From: Trichocoleus desertorum ATA4-8-CV12
GTDB lineage: Bacteria; Cyanobacteriota; Cyanobacteriia; FACHB-46
Length of the DNA stretch: 46,875 bases
Assembly: GCA_019358975.1 (NCBI GenBank)
Contig: JAHHIL010000047.1
Span: 1-46,875 of the forward strand
Direction of reading: 5' to 3'
The notes beneath the pieces were generated by a model. The model saw only the letters and a program-made list of their open reading frames with translations, was not told where the DNA came from and made no database searches. The translations under genes were made by a program, and so were the position numbers. Below are positions 10,585 to 21,165 of the stretch, in pieces. Position 1 is the first letter of the stretch. Each line of letters starts with the position of its first letter.

Positions 10585-12105
10585 TTAGAACTCCAGTCGC
10601 TGATACTCTGCGACGGAAGATGCAGCAGGTCGCGCGCGCTGCCTTGCCCAGTCTCTTAGGGCTGTCACCTGCTCATTCATTGTTTTAGATAGAGGCAATG
10701 TTGACTTGATGGCAGCAATAATGTCGAGCTGAGTAAATTCACGCTCTTGGGCAAATGCCTCGTACATTGCTGCAATCAAAGCCTGTTCAATTTCCGCCCC
10801 GGAAAAACCTTCGCAAACAGTCGCGAGCTGGTCTAGATCAAACCGAGCAATTTCACGCCGCCGCTTGCTTAAGTGAATATTGAAGATCTCTGTGCGCTCC
10901 TCTTTAGTTGGCAGATCGACAAAGAAGATTTCATCGAAACGCCCTTTTCTGAGGAACTCCCCTGGTAAACGCTCCACCCGGTTGGCAGTTGCCATGACAA
11001 ATACCGGAGAGGTTTTTTCTTGCATCCAGGTGAGGAAGGAACCAAAAATACGGCTGGAGGTACCACCATCAGAATCCGCAGAACCAGTGCTACCTGCAAA
11101 CGCTTTATCAATCTCATCGATAAACAGGATTGCTGGAGAGATCGATTCAGCTGTTTTTAAGGCATTACGCAAATTGGCTTCAGAGCGACCTACCATCGAG
11201 CCATCATAAACTCGTCCCATGTCCAGACGAATCAGTGGCAAACCCCAAAGTCTAGAAGTAGTTTTAGCAATCAGGGACTTACCGCAACCCGGAACCCCCA
11301 AAATCAGCATACCTTTGGGCTGAGGTAGTCCATACTCTCTAGCTCTCTCTGTGAAAGCGTTAGAGCGTTGCTTGAGCCAGCGCTTGAGTTCTTCTAAACC
11401 ACCGACAGAATCAATTGTCTCGTCTTCTTCGATGTACTCTAAGATGCCATTACGGCGAATGAGCTGCTTCTTTTCCGATAAAACAATATCTACTTCCGCC
11501 TCTGTTAAGCGGCCTGCGGTCACTAAGGCTTTACGATAAACTTTCTCGGCTTCATCTCGGGTAAGTCCCAGAGCCGCCTTTAGGAGCTTTTCTCGTGCTT
11601 CAGTTGTAATCCGACGGTTGCGAGGCTGTTGGTCTAGCTGTTGGGATAGCACTTGATTCAACTCAGCCATCGTTGGCAGAGTGAAATCGAGCACTACAAC
11701 TTCCTTTTCTAACTCAATCGGAACTTGCTGCACGGGAGACATCAAAATAATAGTTTTTTGTGTTCCCTTAAATCTGGCGATCGCATCTCGAAGTCGCCGC
11801 GTTACTGCTGGAGAATCTTTGAAGGGGTGTAGATCCTTGAACAGGAACACACCAGATGGCTGCCGAATGGCCCAATCAATCGCTGCTTCTGGAGAGACAG
11901 TATTGCTTTGCACTGGGCTACGGGACTGTTCGTGACCCACCATGCCCTCAGTCATTGTCCAAATAAACAGCTGAGGCCGTTGGGGTGATCTAGCTTGAAC
12001 AATTGCGGCAACTGCCTGCTCAGCCCGCTCCTCTTCAGAGGTAACTAGATAGATAAGAGGGTATTGAGCTTGAATTAAAATATTGAGCTCTTCTTGCATA
12101 ACCAT
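10585..12105 (-). CDS. ycf46: Ycf46-type AAA+ ATPase
   Basis: A 506-residue AAA+ protein of the Ycf46 family known from cyanobacteria and plastids. The N-terminal half (1-225) is the family-specific domain starting QEELNILIQAQYPLIYL. The AAA module has Walker A GVPGCGKS at 270-277, Walker B ILFIDE with D330/E331, a sensor-1 segment (VMATANR) and an arginine-finger region (RKGRFDE), all intact. There are no membrane helices and no peptidase zinc motif, so it is not FtsH. Suggested roles in photosynthesis under low CO2 exist for the family, but the mechanism is unknown. A CopG-like gene precedes it and DUF1257 follows, all on the minus strand. Confidence 0.9.
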   Translation of the reverse strand: MVMQEELNILIQAQYPLIYLVTSEEERAEQAVAAIVQARSPQRPQLFIWTMTEGMVGHEQSRSPVQSNTVSPEAAIDWAIRQPSGVFLFKDLHPFKDSPAVTRRLRDAIARFKGTQKTIILMSPVQQVPIELEKEVVVLDFTLPTMAELNQVLSQQLDQQPRNRRITTEAREKLLKAALGLTRDEAEKVYRKALVTAGRLTEAEVDIVLSEKKQLIRRNGILEYIEEDETIDSVGGLEELKRWLKQRSNAFTERAREYGLPQPKGMLILGVPGCGKSLIAKTTSRLWGLPLIRLDMGRVYDGSMVGRSEANLRNALKTAESISPAILFIDEIDKAFAGSTGSADSDGGTSSRIFGSFLTWMQEKTSPVFVMATANRVERLPGEFLRKGRFDEIFFVDLPTKEERTEIFNIHLSKRRREIARFDLDQLATVCEGFSGAEIEQALIAAMYEAFAQEREFTQLDIIAAIKSTLPLSKTMNEQVTALRDWARQRARPAASSVAEYQRLEF

Positions 12106-13464: not shown

Positions 13465-14013
13465 TTGTCAACGAGAGCACCCTTAATCGAAAAAAAACAA
13501 AATCGTGATTTACCCCAAATCAACGAGCGCATTCGATTTCCCAAAATTCGGGTCATTGATACTGATGGGGCACAACTAGGTATCCTTACCCCTCGTGAGG
13601 CTCTGCAAATTGCAGAGGAGAAAGAGCTGGATTTGGTCCTGGTTAGTGATAAAGCCGATCCTCCGGTCTGCCGGATTATGGATTACGGCAAATTTAAATT
13701 TGAACAAGAGAAAAAAGCTAGAGAAGCTAAAAAGAAGCAGCACACTTCCGACGTAAAGGAAGTAAAGATGCGCTACAAAATTGAAGAGCACGATTACAAC
13801 GTCCGCATTAACCAGGCTGAGCGTTTTCTGAAGGCAGGAGACAAGGTCAAAGCGACGATTATGTTTCGGGGTCGGGAGATTCAGCACAGCGACTTAGCTG
13901 AAACCTTGCTGATGCGAATGGCAAAAGATTTGCAAGAAATGGCTGAAGTGCAGCAATTCCCCAAGAAAGAAGGACGCAATATGATGATGTTGCTTGCGCC
14001 CAAGAAAGCATAG
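13465..14013 (+). CDS. infC: Translation initiation factor IF-3
   Basis: IF-3 binds the 30S subunit, proofreads start-codon selection and prevents premature 50S joining. Both domains are present: N-domain ([19 protein letters not shown]), the linker helix ([14 protein letters not shown]) and the C-domain ([18 protein letters not shown], then [17 protein letters not shown]). The start is ambiguous. TTG at 13465 gives 182 residues, but its GGAG is directly adjacent, with no spacing. Downstream AGAG at 13474-13477 sits about 8 bases before an in-frame ATC at 13486. Either way no ATG or GTG start exists near the conserved beginning. Rare start codons in infC allow self-repression in other bacteria. 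The gene stands alone, without rpmI and rplT. Confidence 0.93.
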
Positions 14014-14632: not shown

Positions 14633-17600
14633 ATGACGCTAAAAAATCGGTGGCTTGCTAAAAATAGCCTTGGCCAAAAGCTACTGCGATGGGTCAATCT
14701 CCGCCCAGAAGAGAGCGAGCGTACGATGTTGATGTTTGCTTTTTACACCACAACCTCTATCGGGTTGCTCTGGTTAGAAGCAAGTACAGTCGCTTTATTC
14801 TTAAAAGAGTACGGAGCCGATAAGCTACCTTGGATTTATATTGCTAGCGCCGGGATTGGTTCAGGATTAGGATTTCTCTATTCTTGGATGCAGCGCATCC
14901 TACCGCTACGCCGCGTCATTGTTTTAACTGCTTTATTAATGGCAGTTCCCTTACTCTTATTTCGCTTCGGTCTCAATGTTGAGGATGGAGCCACAATTGG
15001 CAGCCTTACCGTTCTCAGCCTGACAGTTTTGTTGATGCGGCTCTGGCTAGAGGCGATTTACGTCCTTAACGATCTCAACACCTCAATTACGGCCAACCAA
15101 CTTTTTAATATTCGTGAAATTAAACGAACATTTCCACTCATTAGTAGTGGAGTTTTGGTGGCGGATGTCATTAGTGGTTTCTCGTTGCCATTTCTCCTGT
15201 CTTTTATCAAAGTTGCAGATGTAATCTTGATTGCCTGCTTGGTTATGGCGATCGGAGCAGGCGTCTTATTCTACTTGAGCCAAAGTTACAATCAGTTTTT
15301 TCCAGAGGCTCCCCGCAGACGCTTAGAGGAAGCTCATCCCGACCAACTTACGGCTCGTCGGCTGAAAGGGCCGTTGCGGCGATATGTAGTTTTGCTATTC
15401 GCCTTCTTTATGATGGCGCAGGTGCTATTTCTGCTTGTAGATTTCCAATTTCTCAGTCAGCTAGAAAACCAAAATTTATCAGCGCAGGGATTGGTTGGTG
15501 GCATTGCTAGCTTTTTAGGCCTTTTTAATGGGGTGCTAGGCGTTTTTGAATTGGCAACGCAGTGGTTTGCCTCTAGTCGCGTAATTGAGCGGATTGGAGT
15601 GTTTACTGCAGCCATGGTTTTACCGATCGCCATTATTGTTTTAGGCTCTTTTTCCATGACGGGTCTGGTGCCCCTTTTTGTAGGCTTAGTAATCCTCAAG
15701 TTTCTGGATGAGTTGCTGCACTATACCTTATTCACCAGTACAGGGCCTGTCCTCTTTCAAGCCTTACCTGAGAGCGTCCGCAGCGGGCTACAGTCTCTAG
15801 TGAGAGGAATCGCTGAACCGATCGCGACGGGCCTAACGGGACTCAGTATTTTAGGGATTATCTGGTTTTACAAAAATACGGATCTTGCCATCCAGTTGCG
15901 AGATTGGATCTTTTTGGCCCAAATCATTATTCTGGCAGCCATTTGGCTCTTTACTGTTTGGCTGCTGCGTAGCCGCTATGTAGGGCTCCTGGTGGTGGGA
16001 GCAGAGCGAGGGCAACTTAGCATTTCTGATGTAGATTTGCGGGAGCTGAAGCGAGCTGTGATTGAAACGCTCAATCGCCCTGGCACAGAAGCAGACAAGC
16101 GCTCTTGTATTGAGTTACTGAGCCAGATTGATCCGCAGAATGTAGGTGACGCGCTGGCTCCACTGATCGCAAATCTGCCGCCCGCCTTGCAGCGTCAGAG
16201 CTTAGAGGCCATGTTGGTGTATCCCAATGAAGCCTATCTCAGTCAGATTAGAGCTTTAATTGAGCAACCTTTGTTCCCCGAAGTGCTGGCAGTGGCGTTG
16301 CGCTACATCTGGCTCACAGAACGAGAACCTGATATTCGGCAATTGCGGCCTTACTTGCGCCCAGAAGTTGATCCGGTGGTGCGAGGTACGGCGGCATCTC
16401 TGATGTTGCGGCGAGGCACCCCTCGACAGAAGGCGGAGGCTACCAATACGTTGCGGCAAATGCTGACTCACAAAAAAGAGCGCGAACGGGTGATGGGTTG
16501 TCGCGCTTTGGGTGAGGCGGTTTATCTCCAAGCGCTGCGGCTTTACATCCCCAACTTGTTGCAAGATGAATCTTTGCGAGTCCGTTGTGCTTTGCTGGAG
16601 GCGATCGCTGCCACCCATTTAGATGAATACTATCCTTCGCTACTACGGGGCTTGCACTACAAATCGACTCGTGAAGCAGCTATGCGAGCCCTGGTCAGGC
16701 TGGAGGATGAAGCCATTCCTTTGTTGGTGGACTTAGCCGAGGATAGTCATAAACCAGACTTAGTCCGCATGCAGGCTTGGAGTGCGATCGGTCAAATTGG
16801 CACTCACAAAGCTTTAGACGTGCTAGTGGCTCATTTGATGACCGCCTGGGGAGCCACTCGACGTAACGTTCTAAGAATTTTGTTAAAAATTCCCCATGAG
16901 CAGGGTATTGATGCCATCTCCGATCGCTTGGGACGGAGTGGGGTAGAAACCCTGATTGATCAAGAAATGCTGTTTATTGGACAGCTCTATGCTGCCTTAG
17001 TGGATCTCAATTCTGAGCAGATTTTAGGCGGAGAAGCAGATTTACTGCGTCGGGCGTTAGAAGATGTGCATACCGATGCAGTAGAGCGCCTATTTTTGCT
17101 GATGAAGGTGTTGTATCCCTTAGAAGCGATTCAGGCAGCAGCACTCAACCTGCAATCCGCCTCGCCTTCTAGTGTGGCTCAGGGCTTGGAGATCTTAGAC
17201 AATACTTTGGATATTGCCAATAAACGCGCTTTGTTGAGTGTGCTCGATCGCCGCCCTGAATTGGATAAGCTGCAAAGCCTTTCGAGTATGGTGGTCTATG
17301 AACCGATGAGTGCTAGCGATCGCCTGCGCTACCTGTTAGATTTGCGCTATTTTCTACCCGACTGGCCTTTAGCCTGCTGTTTTCATTTAGCGCGTCAGGC
17401 TCGCTGGAGTCTCACATCCGAGCAAATTCTAGCTTGTTTGCGCTACCCCACGGGATATGTCCGGGAGGCCGTCCTGACTTATTTGCAGGTTGCATCTCCT
17501 AGAGCCCTCAAAGAGCTTTTGCCCAAGCTGACTAACGATCCAGATCGACTGGTAGCGGCTCAAGTCCAGCAGATGATGGCAGAATTGGGCTTAGCGACTC

Positions 17601-17680
17601 CTAAAGCGCACCCCAACGGCTCCAAACCCCCGGAGCAGCCTACCAACTTTTCGGATATAGCGGGATTTGAGCCTATTTAA
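14633..17680 (+). CDS. MFS/nucleotide-translocase-like membrane protein fused to HEAT repeats
   Basis: A 1015-residue two-part protein. Residues about 30-450 hold roughly 12 hydrophobic helices in an arrangement resembling the ATP/ADP translocase (NTT) or MFS fold (start RPEESERTMLMFAFYTTTSIG). Residues about 465-1000 are a chain of HEAT-like helical repeats (such as DPVVRGTAASLMLRRG, ERVMGCRALGEAV, LRVRCALLEAIAA), probably cytoplasmic. The substrate is unknown; typical NTT substrate residues cannot be judged by eye. It is followed 124 bases later on the same strand by a stand-alone cyclic-nucleotide-binding protein, suggesting a membrane sensor or gated transporter with a cNMP-responsive partner. 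No frameshift or truncation is seen. Confidence 0.8.
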   Translation: MTLKNRWLAKNSLGQKLLRWVNLRPEESERTMLMFAFYTTTSIGLLWLEASTVALFLKEYGADKLPWIYIASAGIGSGLGFLYSWMQRILPLRRVIVLTALLMAVPLLLFRFGLNVEDGATIGSLTVLSLTVLLMRLWLEAIYVLNDLNTSITANQLFNIREIKRTFPLISSGVLVADVISGFSLPFLLSFIKVADVILIACLVMAIGAGVLFYLSQSYNQFFPEAPRRRLEEAHPDQLTARRLKGPLRRYVVLLFAFFMMAQVLFLLVDFQFLSQLENQNLSAQGLVGGIASFLGLFNGVLGVFELATQWFASSRVIERIGVFTAAMVLPIAIIVLGSFSMTGLVPLFVGLVILKFLDELLHYTLFTSTGPVLFQALPESVRSGLQSLVRGIAEPIATGLTGLSILGIIWFYKNTDLAIQLRDWIFLAQIIILAAIWLFTVWLLRSRYVGLLVVGAERGQLSISDVDLRELKRAVIETLNRPGTEADKRSCIELLSQIDPQNVGDALAPLIANLPPALQRQSLEAMLVYPNEAYLSQIRALIEQPLFPEVLAVALRYIWLTEREPDIRQLRPYLRPEVDPVVRGTAASLMLRRGTPRQKAEATNTLRQMLTHKKERERVMGCRALGEAVYLQALRLYIPNLLQDESLRVRCALLEAIAATHLDEYYPSLLRGLHYKSTREAAMRALVRLEDEAIPLLVDLAEDSHKPDLVRMQAWSAIGQIGTHKALDVLVAHLMTAWGATRRNVLRILLKIPHEQGIDAISDRLGRSGVETLIDQEMLFIGQLYAALVDLNSEQILGGEADLLRRALEDVHTDAVERLFLLMKVLYPLEAIQAAALNLQSASPSSVAQGLEILDNTLDIANKRALLSVLDRRPELDKLQSLSSMVVYEPMSASDRLRYLLDLRYFLPDWPLACCFHLARQARWSLTSEQILACLRYPTGYVREAVLTYLQVASPRALKELLPKLTNDPDRLVAAQVQQMMAELGLATPKAHPNGSKPPEQPTNFSDIAGFEPI

Positions 17681-17804
17681 CCTTCTACCTATCCAAACTC
17701 AAGGCAATTAACAACGTTTACAGCCGTCTTTTAGCCCTCTGTTTTCTCACTAAATTTCTATTTCAACTTAAGCCCGATGTGAACTCATCCGTACCCTAAA
17801 CTTT

Positions 17805-18314
17805 ATGTTAACCAGCGTCGATCGCCTGCTTTTTGTTCGAGGAGTACCTATCTTTAAGGAACTACGGGATGATTTTCTCGTTAGGTTAGCCTCCATTATG
17901 GATGAGCTCTCTTTTCCGACAAAGCACACCATCTTTAAAGAGGGGCAGGAGGGGCGATCGCTTTACATTGTGGTGTCTGGTCGAGTTCGGGTGCATCTAA
18001 GCAATCAGGATTTGGCGCAGTTAGAAAAAGGCGCTTGCTTTGGGGAAATGTCTTTGTTTGATGCCGAGCCGCGTTCAGCTTCAGTTACAACCCTGGAGAC
18101 TTGTGAGTGCTTGGTTCTGACGCAGCAGCAGCTCTACGACGCCATTGATGAGACTCCTGGCATCGCCCTCAATATTATTCGGCTGTTGTCCCGCCGCATT
18201 CGGGAGCTAAATCAGAGGATTAACGCTCAAGACGCCGAAAATCAAAAGTTACTGTCTTTGTACAATCGTCACGTGAACAGTTTGCAAGATAACCGTCTGC
18301 CCTCTTCCTACTAA
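17805..18314 (+). CDS. Stand-alone cyclic-nucleotide-binding domain protein
   Basis: A 169-residue protein with one cNMP-binding beta-roll (about 12-125). The phosphate-binding cassette reads FGEMSLFDAEPRSASV, with the Glu and Arg that usually contact the cyclic phosphate both present, so it should bind cAMP or cGMP. After the C-helix comes a coiled-coil-like tail (RELNQRINAQDAENQKLL), but there is no helix-turn-helix, so it is not a Crp-type transcription factor. Its place behind the transporter-HEAT gene suggests it acts on that protein. Its stop codon overlaps that of the convergent cbiA. Confidence 0.87.
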   Translation: MLTSVDRLLFVRGVPIFKELRDDFLVRLASIMDELSFPTKHTIFKEGQEGRSLYIVVSGRVRVHLSNQDLAQLEKGACFGEMSLFDAEPRSASVTTLETCECLVLTQQQLYDAIDETPGIALNIIRLLSRRIRELNQRINAQDAENQKLLSLYNRHVNSLQDNRLPSSY

Positions 18315-19782: not shown

Positions 19783-21165
19783 TTACTCGGCTGAACGCTC
19801 CTGCAATTTAGCAATTTGAGCTGACACGGCTAGGCTTTCTTCGTACAGTGCATCCCGACCCCAACTTTGAAGTTGTTGACTGAGCAGATTCTCTGCTTTC
19901 TGGTCCAATAGGGATGAAACCTGCTGAATTCGGCAGGCTTGGGCACCGCCCCCCGATTCCATCCGCATACAACCAGAGGTTTCAGAGCAAAGCACTGTAC
20001 AACAATCAGCATTAAGATTCGTCGAAGTAAGACGCAGGGCCATCAAGTCACCTCCCACATCCCCATAATCAGCCGTGGGCATTCCTGCTAATTCTGCTTC
20101 GATCGGGCGCTGATCAGCCGCAACAAACCGCACTCGCCGCAAATCGTAGTCGCCTCCTTCGTACTCATAAGAGACGGGATGCCACTGGAGCCGACTTGCT
20201 AACCAACCTAGAAACATTAAAGCTTGGGTCGGATTTCCTTGCTCGTAGTCAATGGTGACGCGATCGACTTCTGTTAAGGCAGCCCGACGCTCCGGGGGGT
20301 CAAAAGCCTCCGCAGTTAATTCCTGCCATGGGGCCAGCCGTCGCCAGTTCAGGTCAGCCACATGAGTTCCTTGTTCCAGAAGGCTTTGGACTTTGAGCAG
20401 GCCAGTTTCTGCTTCCAAGAAAGTGCTGGAGTCTACAATCACACAGGTAGAAAAACCTGCTAACTGCCTAAATAAGTCTTGGTTAGGCTCAGGCGTCGCT
20501 TTCCACCACAGAAACTTTGGCAGGTCACTAATCAACAAAGAAGAAACCAAACTACTAGATCGGTCTAGCGCTATTTCTGTACCTCGCAGAGTAATGTACT
20601 CACAACAAATCAAAGTACTGCGGCTTTGCTTTTGCACGGGGCAGTAAGCAGAAACTTGAGCTGTCACCCCTTCATCTTCTCCAGAAACGGGGAATAGAGC
20701 GATGATGCGGCAAGGATTTTGGCTGGCGATCGCATCTGCCACCCCTGCCCCTCTAGCATCTCTGGCATAGGAAGGGCTGACCGAGGAAGATTCACCACTG
20801 GCAGCACTCGTACGCTTTTTGGTGAGTTCCTCCTGCAACTTTTGTAGTATTTCGGAAGTGGCTTTGCCTGTAATAGGTAAACCATAGGTTTCCTGGGCTG
20901 TCCTCAGAGCTGCTTCCATGCGAGGACCAGTAATGCCATCAATCGGCCCCGTATAAAAACCGAGGTCAGCAAGTAAGTGCTGAGTTTCCTCCGGTTCATA
21001 AACGATCAAACTAAAAGTAGCGGCCCTCGTCGCCACAGGAAAGGAGCCATCATCACCTGTAGCACTATAACTTTGCCAAATCTTACCAAGTTCCCCGTCA
21101 ATTTCGCTGAGCGAAACATCTTTGGGAGCTTGCAGAGAAACAACAGGAGAAGACTGTTTAGCCAT
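19783..21165 (-). CDS. opcA: Glucose-6-phosphate dehydrogenase assembly/activator protein OpcA
   Basis: OpcA binds glucose-6-phosphate dehydrogenase and promotes its active oligomer; in cyanobacteria thioredoxin acts on it to set activity by light. 460 residues with an N-terminal segment, a peptidoglycan-binding-like helical repeat (LLADLGFYTGPIDGITGPRM, about 65-110), then the OpcA domain proper (CRIIALFPVSG, DLPKFLWWKATPEP, HVADLNWRRLAPWQ). Several cysteines are present (for example the CPVQ region and the paired Cys near 400), which fits redox control. It follows zwf by 88 bases and is the last gene of the fbp-tal-zwf-opcA unit, ended by the terminator at 19711-19763. Confidence 0.93.
   Translation of the reverse strand: MAKQSSPVVSLQAPKDVSLSEIDGELGKIWQSYSATGDDGSFPVATRAATFSLIVYEPEETQHLLADLGFYTGPIDGITGPRMEAALRTAQETYGLPITGKATSEILQKLQEELTKKRTSAASGESSSVSPSYARDARGAGVADAIASQNPCRIIALFPVSGEDEGVTAQVSAYCPVQKQSRSTLICCEYITLRGTEIALDRSSSLVSSLLISDLPKFLWWKATPEPNQDLFRQLAGFSTCVIVDSSTFLEAETGLLKVQSLLEQGTHVADLNWRRLAPWQELTAEAFDPPERRAALTEVDRVTIDYEQGNPTQALMFLGWLASRLQWHPVSYEYEGGDYDLRRVRFVAADQRPIEAELAGMPTADYGDVGGDLMALRLTSTNLNADCCTVLCSETSGCMRMESGGGAQACRIQQVSSLLDQKAENLLSQQLQSWGRDALYEESLAVSAQIAKLQERSAE

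Follow-up and report, generated by a model that had tools for sequence, protein, structure and literature searches.

Genes and domains at the locus

We analysed a window of 46,875 nucleotides from Trichocoleus desertorum ATA4-8-CV12 (contig JAHHIL010000047.1, assembly GCA_019358975.1), which carries two consecutive genes of particular interest. The first encodes a large protein in which an N-terminal membrane domain of the nucleotide translocase (NTT) type is fused to C-terminal HEAT repeats (NTT-HEAT), and the second encodes a small, stand-alone protein consisting of a cyclic-nucleotide-binding domain (cNBD). Across the genomes that we compared, the two genes are mostly kept or lost together, even when far apart, and a functional link between them is likely. 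Both open reading frames (ORFs) lie where the initial annotation had placed them (Table 1). From the stop of the NTT-HEAT ORF to the start of the cNBD ORF there are 124 bp, and a consensus scan, the one method applied to this gap, revealed no terminator-like or promoter-like match on the plus strand.

Table 1 Features of the locus, in window coordinates
Feature	Position	Strand	Basis or remark
NTT-HEAT fusion gene	14633..17680	+	1015 aa; ORF list, Pfam and profile matches
NTT-type 12-helix membrane domain, ~residues 1–465	14633..16027	+	Profile matches, hydropathy, residue alignment
HEAT-repeat solenoid, ~residues 466–984, predicted cytosolic	16028..17584	+	PF13646, PF03130; low-confidence model; hydropathy and charge
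Intergenic gap, 124 bp	17681..17804	+	Consensus scan
Stand-alone cyclic-nucleotide-binding protein, 169 aa	17805..18314	+	PF00027; no DNA-binding domain found
Phosphate-binding cassette, residues 79–93 (FGEMSLFDAEPRSAS)	18039..18083	+	E81, R90 and S91 invariant
infC (translation initiation factor IF-3), upstream neighbour kept in many relatives	13465..14013	+	Control gene; not considered a component of the system

Profile comparisons assign the large protein to the NTT/TLC family (PF03219). Searched alone, the window protein gave no PF03219 match at E cut-offs of 0.1 and 1; nine of 18 aligned members (the window protein and 17 orthologues) matched this family at E ≤ 1, the best at 3.2e-10. A profile of these 18 sequences, compared with 177,635 PDB sequences, recovered at E ≤ 1 only 9j3j and 9j3n (1.5e-8 and 1.6e-5), which are solved NTT ATP/ADP carriers. 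With a wider 20-sequence profile that included remote members, 9j3j and 9j3n were matched at 2e-15 and 1e-17, best over positions 16–434 of 467. A PF03219 search of the organism's own genome gave no match, and likewise none for its 14 controls, so this negative carries no information; the plasmid tblastn search returned a single weak match, to the major facilitator superfamily.

Hydropathy averaged over the 18 sequences shows 12 peaks in the membrane part, counted as maxima of at least 0.9 that lie 19 residues apart (a spacing rule of our own). The loops between them alternate between K/R-rich (1.9–6.1 per sequence) and K/R-poor (0.0–1.1), which argues that both termini, and hence the HEAT part, lie on the inside. 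The same alignment contains 61 invariant columns in the membrane part. Beyond it, the large protein matches HEAT_2 (PF13646) at E 1.3e-17 in Pfam, as well as PF03130. This part spans ~520 residues, its top PDB matches are designed HEAT-like alphaReps, and an AlphaFold model of low confidence (mean predicted local distance difference test score (pLDDT), 47.6) shows helix pairs between about residues 466 and 984. The profile matches, the 12 peaks and the HEAT_2 match bear out the initial annotation of an NTT-like 12-helix domain fused to HEAT repeats.

The phosphate cassette of the stand-alone partner

The small protein matches PF00027 at E 3.2e-22, and its 169 residues gave no helix-turn-helix (HTH) match at E 0.1 in Pfam. 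By profile, its closest solved relatives are cyclic nucleotide monophosphate (cNMP) domains of the PKG/PKA regulatory type (5dyk, E 4.1e-49). Residues E81, R90 and S91 of the cassette are invariant in all 16 aligned stand-alone partners, and the same E, R and S are kept in the four copies examined that are unlinked to NTT-HEAT (G264, G149, G030 and G074). Judged by these residues, the stand-alone cassette looks competent for binding. The initial annotation, which described the small protein as a stand-alone cNMP binder that lacks a DNA-binding domain and has its phosphate cassette intact, agrees with these results.

We also surveyed cNBD relatives from genomes lacking NTT-HEAT, using six sequences from five of the ten such genomes (L039, L040, L041, L042 and L045). 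E, R and S are kept in those of G085, G169 and G196 and in the first of two in G269; R is replaced by P in the G151 sequence and by H in the other sequence of G269.

A third group comprises fusions of all three domains, NTT-HEAT-cNBD, of ~1050–1160 aa. They occur within the class, some genomes having both a fusion and a split pair, and their NTT part is 16–19% identical to that of the window (five examined, L034–L038). Among 27 cNBD sequences of the fused group, 21 have E and 6 have D at the cassette Glu position; 17 retain Arg, against 7 with H, 2 with Y and 1 with L, and the residue following this position is W in 18, S in 5, A in 2 and L in 2. These sequences come from 29 fused-group loci, two of which (G146 and G182) had no cNBD row, with one empty duplicate row dropped; they include G153, a fragment at a contig end whose fusion is not established, as well as G004 and G038, which do not belong to the class. 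The fused proteins (L034–L038 and L073–L096) thus mostly carry R-W or H-W, in contrast to R-S in the stand-alone cassette. On these alignments, the stand-alone form keeps the cassette, and in the fused form it is mostly altered.

The two genes are mostly kept or lost together

In a sample of 146 genomes from the phylum, close NTT-HEAT orthologues and close cNBD orthologues were found in 31 genomes each, and the two sets were identical; in 17 of these genomes the genes stand in tandem within 1.5 kb. The cuts behind these numbers (NTT E ≤ 1e-259, cNBD E ≤ 3e-57) leave out the G085 cNBD (4.4e-39) and weak NTT relatives.

A class sample of 242 genomes, in which genes matched in pieces were joined or chosen by hand, yielded NTT-HEAT matches in 138 and cNBD matches in 143. 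Both genes were present in 133 genomes, NTT-HEAT only in 5, cNBD only in 10 and neither in 94. In 108 of the 133 the genes form a same-strand tandem no more than 1.5 kb apart; 11 of the remaining pairs share a contig without being in tandem, and 14 are divided between contigs, in some cases maybe because of assembly breaks.

Family f7 (193 genomes) allowed us to follow the pair where linkage is mostly lost. NTT-HEAT matched in 169 of its genomes and cNBD in 166, all of them within the 169. The three genomes with an NTT match and no cNBD are G022, G407 and G469, and the NTT matches of the first two are remnant-sized only (E 2.2e-22 and 1.1e-22). The G022 remnant corresponds to the first 71 residues of NTT-HEAT, directly behind infC (L043:6135-6347), and the cNBD gene is gone. 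With remnants counted as losses, 166 genomes have both genes, one has NTT-HEAT only (G469), none has cNBD only and 26 have neither. Among the 136 genomes with listed positions for both genes (149 for NTT, 147 for cNBD; G414, with 38% contamination, was left out), the pair is in tandem within 2.5 kb in 25, apart on one contig in 44 and on different contigs in 67. Both genes are likewise absent from genomes of 7.3–9.8 Mb in the genera g166 and g171.

The two proteins also diverge from those of the window in a correlated manner (Spearman 0.63; 0.65 when controlling for infC) across 103 genomes, a set that lacks those genomes whose infC is most divergent and in which a piecewise NTT-HEAT (for example, G002, G066, G265, G288 and G334) is represented by the identity of one piece or by an estimate weighted by length. 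The initial annotation had suggested a functional link and had named a random neighbourhood in other genomes as the result that would speak against it. We found mostly tandem pairs, and unlinked pairs that are still co-retained; together with co-occurrence in 133 of 138 class genomes and 166 of 193 f7 genomes, this makes the link likely.

Several observations weigh against treating the two proteins as one unit. Among 32 loci (L001–L033), 28 have the control gene infC immediately before NTT-HEAT and 19 have cNBD nearby; in the class sample, infC holds this upstream position in 64 of 103 genomes. With infC at least as conserved a neighbour, adjacency alone is weak evidence. All co-occurrence counts and correlations given above come from related genomes and are uncorrected for shared ancestry; Fisher values computed from such counts do not serve as probabilities. 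The ten class genomes with a cNBD relative (39–54% identity) and no NTT-HEAT, seven of them in family f18, indicate that cNBD can be retained without NTT-HEAT, and two of these relatives, in G085 and G169, nonetheless keep E, R and S. Conversely, NTT-HEAT was matched without cNBD in five of the 242 genomes (G163, G022, G154, G182 and G331). In G163, an assembly with 8% contamination, no cNBD is found in the 3 kb examined behind NTT-HEAT; in G331, NTT-HEAT is split over two contigs, and 38 kb on the downstream side hold no cNBD match. The G154 NTT-HEAT is divergent and its genome also has a fused form, and the G182 gene lies close to a contig edge. G469 of f7 has NTT-HEAT without cNBD. The altered cassette of the fused relatives suggests that canonical cNMP binding is maybe not essential to the architecture. 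Finally, the AlphaFold models, built from 3-row alignments, are poor (pLDDT 47.6 and 42.2) and lend no structural support.

Following the infC control (28 against 19 of 32 loci), we rejected adjacency as sufficient proof of linkage. As a separate observation, we know of no cause for the position of infC upstream of NTT-HEAT. The convergent neighbour in the window, cobB, is confined to the window locus among these 32, which mostly extend 1.5 kb to either side; it adjoins the displaced cNBD in G030 and lies within 1.5 kb of cNBD in G074.

These results bear on the alternative that the genes are not partners, both being old and prone to joint absence from certain lineages, with their adjacency a relic. 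The conservation of infC, a neighbour with no plausible link, would fit this explanation, as would the ten genomes with cNBD relatives only and family f25 (1.6–2.3 Mb), for which the matches listed comprise weak HEAT-region matches only and no cNBD match. Against it, family f47 shows the NTT-cNBD tandem in 24 of 24 cases with infC directly upstream in 0 of 24, whereas f7 retains infC upstream in 12 of 13 loci while cNBD has mostly moved; the infC-NTT and NTT-cNBD neighbour relations therefore break independently. The shared absence in g166 and g171 occurs in large genomes, the f7 table is near perfect despite unlinking, and natural NTT-HEAT-cNBD fusions exist. We regard this alternative as improbable.

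Both nucleotide-binding lysines are missing from the membrane domain

In the plant carrier AtNTT1, the residues important for transport include K155, E245, E385 and K527 (PMC10654386, PMC3306366); the K155E variant binds neither ADP nor ATP, and K527E shows no ATP binding (PMC3306366). Residues 71, 161, 301 and 443 of 9j3j correspond to these four positions, with a single offset of 84 fitting all four letters, and we mapped them onto the window protein by remote profile alignments. The E385 site falls on D270 (11 D and 7 E in the 18 sequences) and the E245 site on D147 with the first profile or E140 with the wider one, both of which are D or E in 18/18. Both profiles place the K527 site at T399, a column with 13 T, 3 S, 1 A and 1 I. 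The K155 site falls in the interval from I68 to Y69, of which Y69 is invariant, and none of the 18 has a Lys at window residues 67–70. The acids of the NTT1 charged set are thus kept and both lysines are missing throughout the alignment.

The absence of both nucleotide-binding lysines makes a classical ATP/ADP exchanger unlikely. Such a carrier, regulated by cyclic AMP (cAMP) and moving ATP in exchange for ADP (or ATP alone) across thylakoid or cell membranes, was the proposal made in 2017 (PMC5381601), and NTT family membership by profile and the D or E at the E245 and E385 positions would suit it. We nevertheless give it a low probability, as the remote alignments show no Lys at the K155 site and T, S, A or I at the K527 site, the very positions at which the NTT1 variants lose nucleotide binding (PMC3306366). 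The residue pattern may instead leave room for another substrate or for a sensing role.

In the latter case the membrane part could be a non-transporting ligand sensor, a transceptor or scaffold, on which the HEAT repeats and the cNBD assemble a signalling complex. The lost lysines, the large HEAT solenoid and the cytosolic C-terminus are compatible with this idea, but the 61 invariant membrane columns and the kept acids suit a working transporter equally well, and we consider a purely sensory protein unlikely.

A tentative two-protein model

Our preferred reading, held tentatively and at somewhat short of even odds, is that the two proteins form one functional unit, a cAMP-responsive transporter or transceptor with an NTT fold. 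It builds on the domain families, the topology from hydropathy and charge, the cassette, the co-occurrence and the shared absence established here. A 12-helix NTT-family membrane protein with a cytosolic C-terminal HEAT solenoid would work with a separate cytosolic cNMP-binding subunit. The small protein would bind cAMP, its presumed ligand, and dock on the HEAT solenoid, and docking might then switch the transport or signalling activity of the membrane domain through a form of gating. We infer a substrate that is probably not ATP/ADP in the classical NTT1 manner, and likewise the membrane location. The suggestion in the initial annotation of a transporter or receptor under cAMP or cGMP control through a HEAT scaffold may prove right. 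Support is stronger for the functional link than for gating, ligand or substrate.

Many cyanobacteria produce cAMP, yet in this group few proteins besides transcription factors are known to be its direct targets. Eight matches to class III cyclases in the organism's own genome exceed the cut-off, as do nine of its 11 matches to the cNMP domain, which makes cAMP signalling there plausible. A widespread, co-retained pair of a membrane protein and a cNMP-binding partner is a concrete and testable candidate cAMP target. If the preferred reading is true, it would show a role for NTT proteins in free-living bacteria, where ATP import from a host is not the role. A more specific version, possible although we would not bet on it, is an effector of an uncharacterised type in which an NTT fold minus the ATP/ADP site is controlled through HEAT repeats by a separate cAMP-binding subunit, retained by selection even once the two genes have become unlinked, while the cNMP module of the fused relatives is perhaps ligand-independent.

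Other features of the window

Two further genes, both on the minus strand, are of separate interest. OpcA, the glucose-6-phosphate dehydrogenase assembly protein (19783–21165), has a PG_binding_1 match at residues 60–110, an apparent insertion. An AAA ATPase (10585–12105) matches CDC48, FtsH and anti-phage IteA models, all under the NCBIfam curated cut-offs.

Comparison with known systems

NTT-HEAT fusions were described as broadly conserved, and present in cyanobacteria, by Major, Embley and Williams in 2017 (PMC5381601), who also reported a cNBD gene directly after NTT-HEAT in some cases and fusions of all three domains. For the pair they proposed an operon and a cAMP-adjusted ATP uptake. 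According to that paper, characterisation of the cyanobacterial fusions was still entirely lacking in 2017; a 2019 review mentions the fusions (PMC6995639), and our literature searches turned up no functional study of NTT-HEAT. The view in the initial annotation that the layout is undescribed therefore does not stand, since the accessible text already contains the same arrangement and a similar regulatory proposal; its statement that no characterised system has this layout is in line with our searches. The arrangement is real, conserved and already described, both in its layout and in the regulatory idea.

The window pair belongs to this NTT-HEAT (+cNBD) family, having an N-terminal NTT domain, C-terminal HEAT repeats (PF13646) and a cNBD (PF00027) 124 bp downstream on the same strand. 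It shares its three domains with the NTT-HEAT-cNBD fusions of other bacteria, oomycetes and some cyanobacteria (PMC5381601), and differs from them in being encoded by two genes with an intact cassette, where the fusions are one polypeptide with a mostly altered cassette. With NTT1-type ATP/ADP translocators (9j3j and 9j3n) the large protein has in common the profile family, 12 helices and conserved acids; it has an extra HEAT tail and lacks both nucleotide-binding lysines. The small protein shares a cNMP domain with cassette with the CRP/FNR regulators, without an HTH match, and the PKG/PKA regulatory domains are its closest solved counterparts, although it has no kinase part and comprises 169 aa only. 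The closest likeness is to the system of Major et al. (PMC5381601), with the same domain order, the same separate downstream cNBD gene and the same phylum. We met no co-retention test on unlinked pairs and no key-residue analysis in the accessible text of that study, and what our analysis adds is the co-retention that includes unlinked pairs, the missing NTT1 lysines and the cassette contrast between stand-alone and fused forms.

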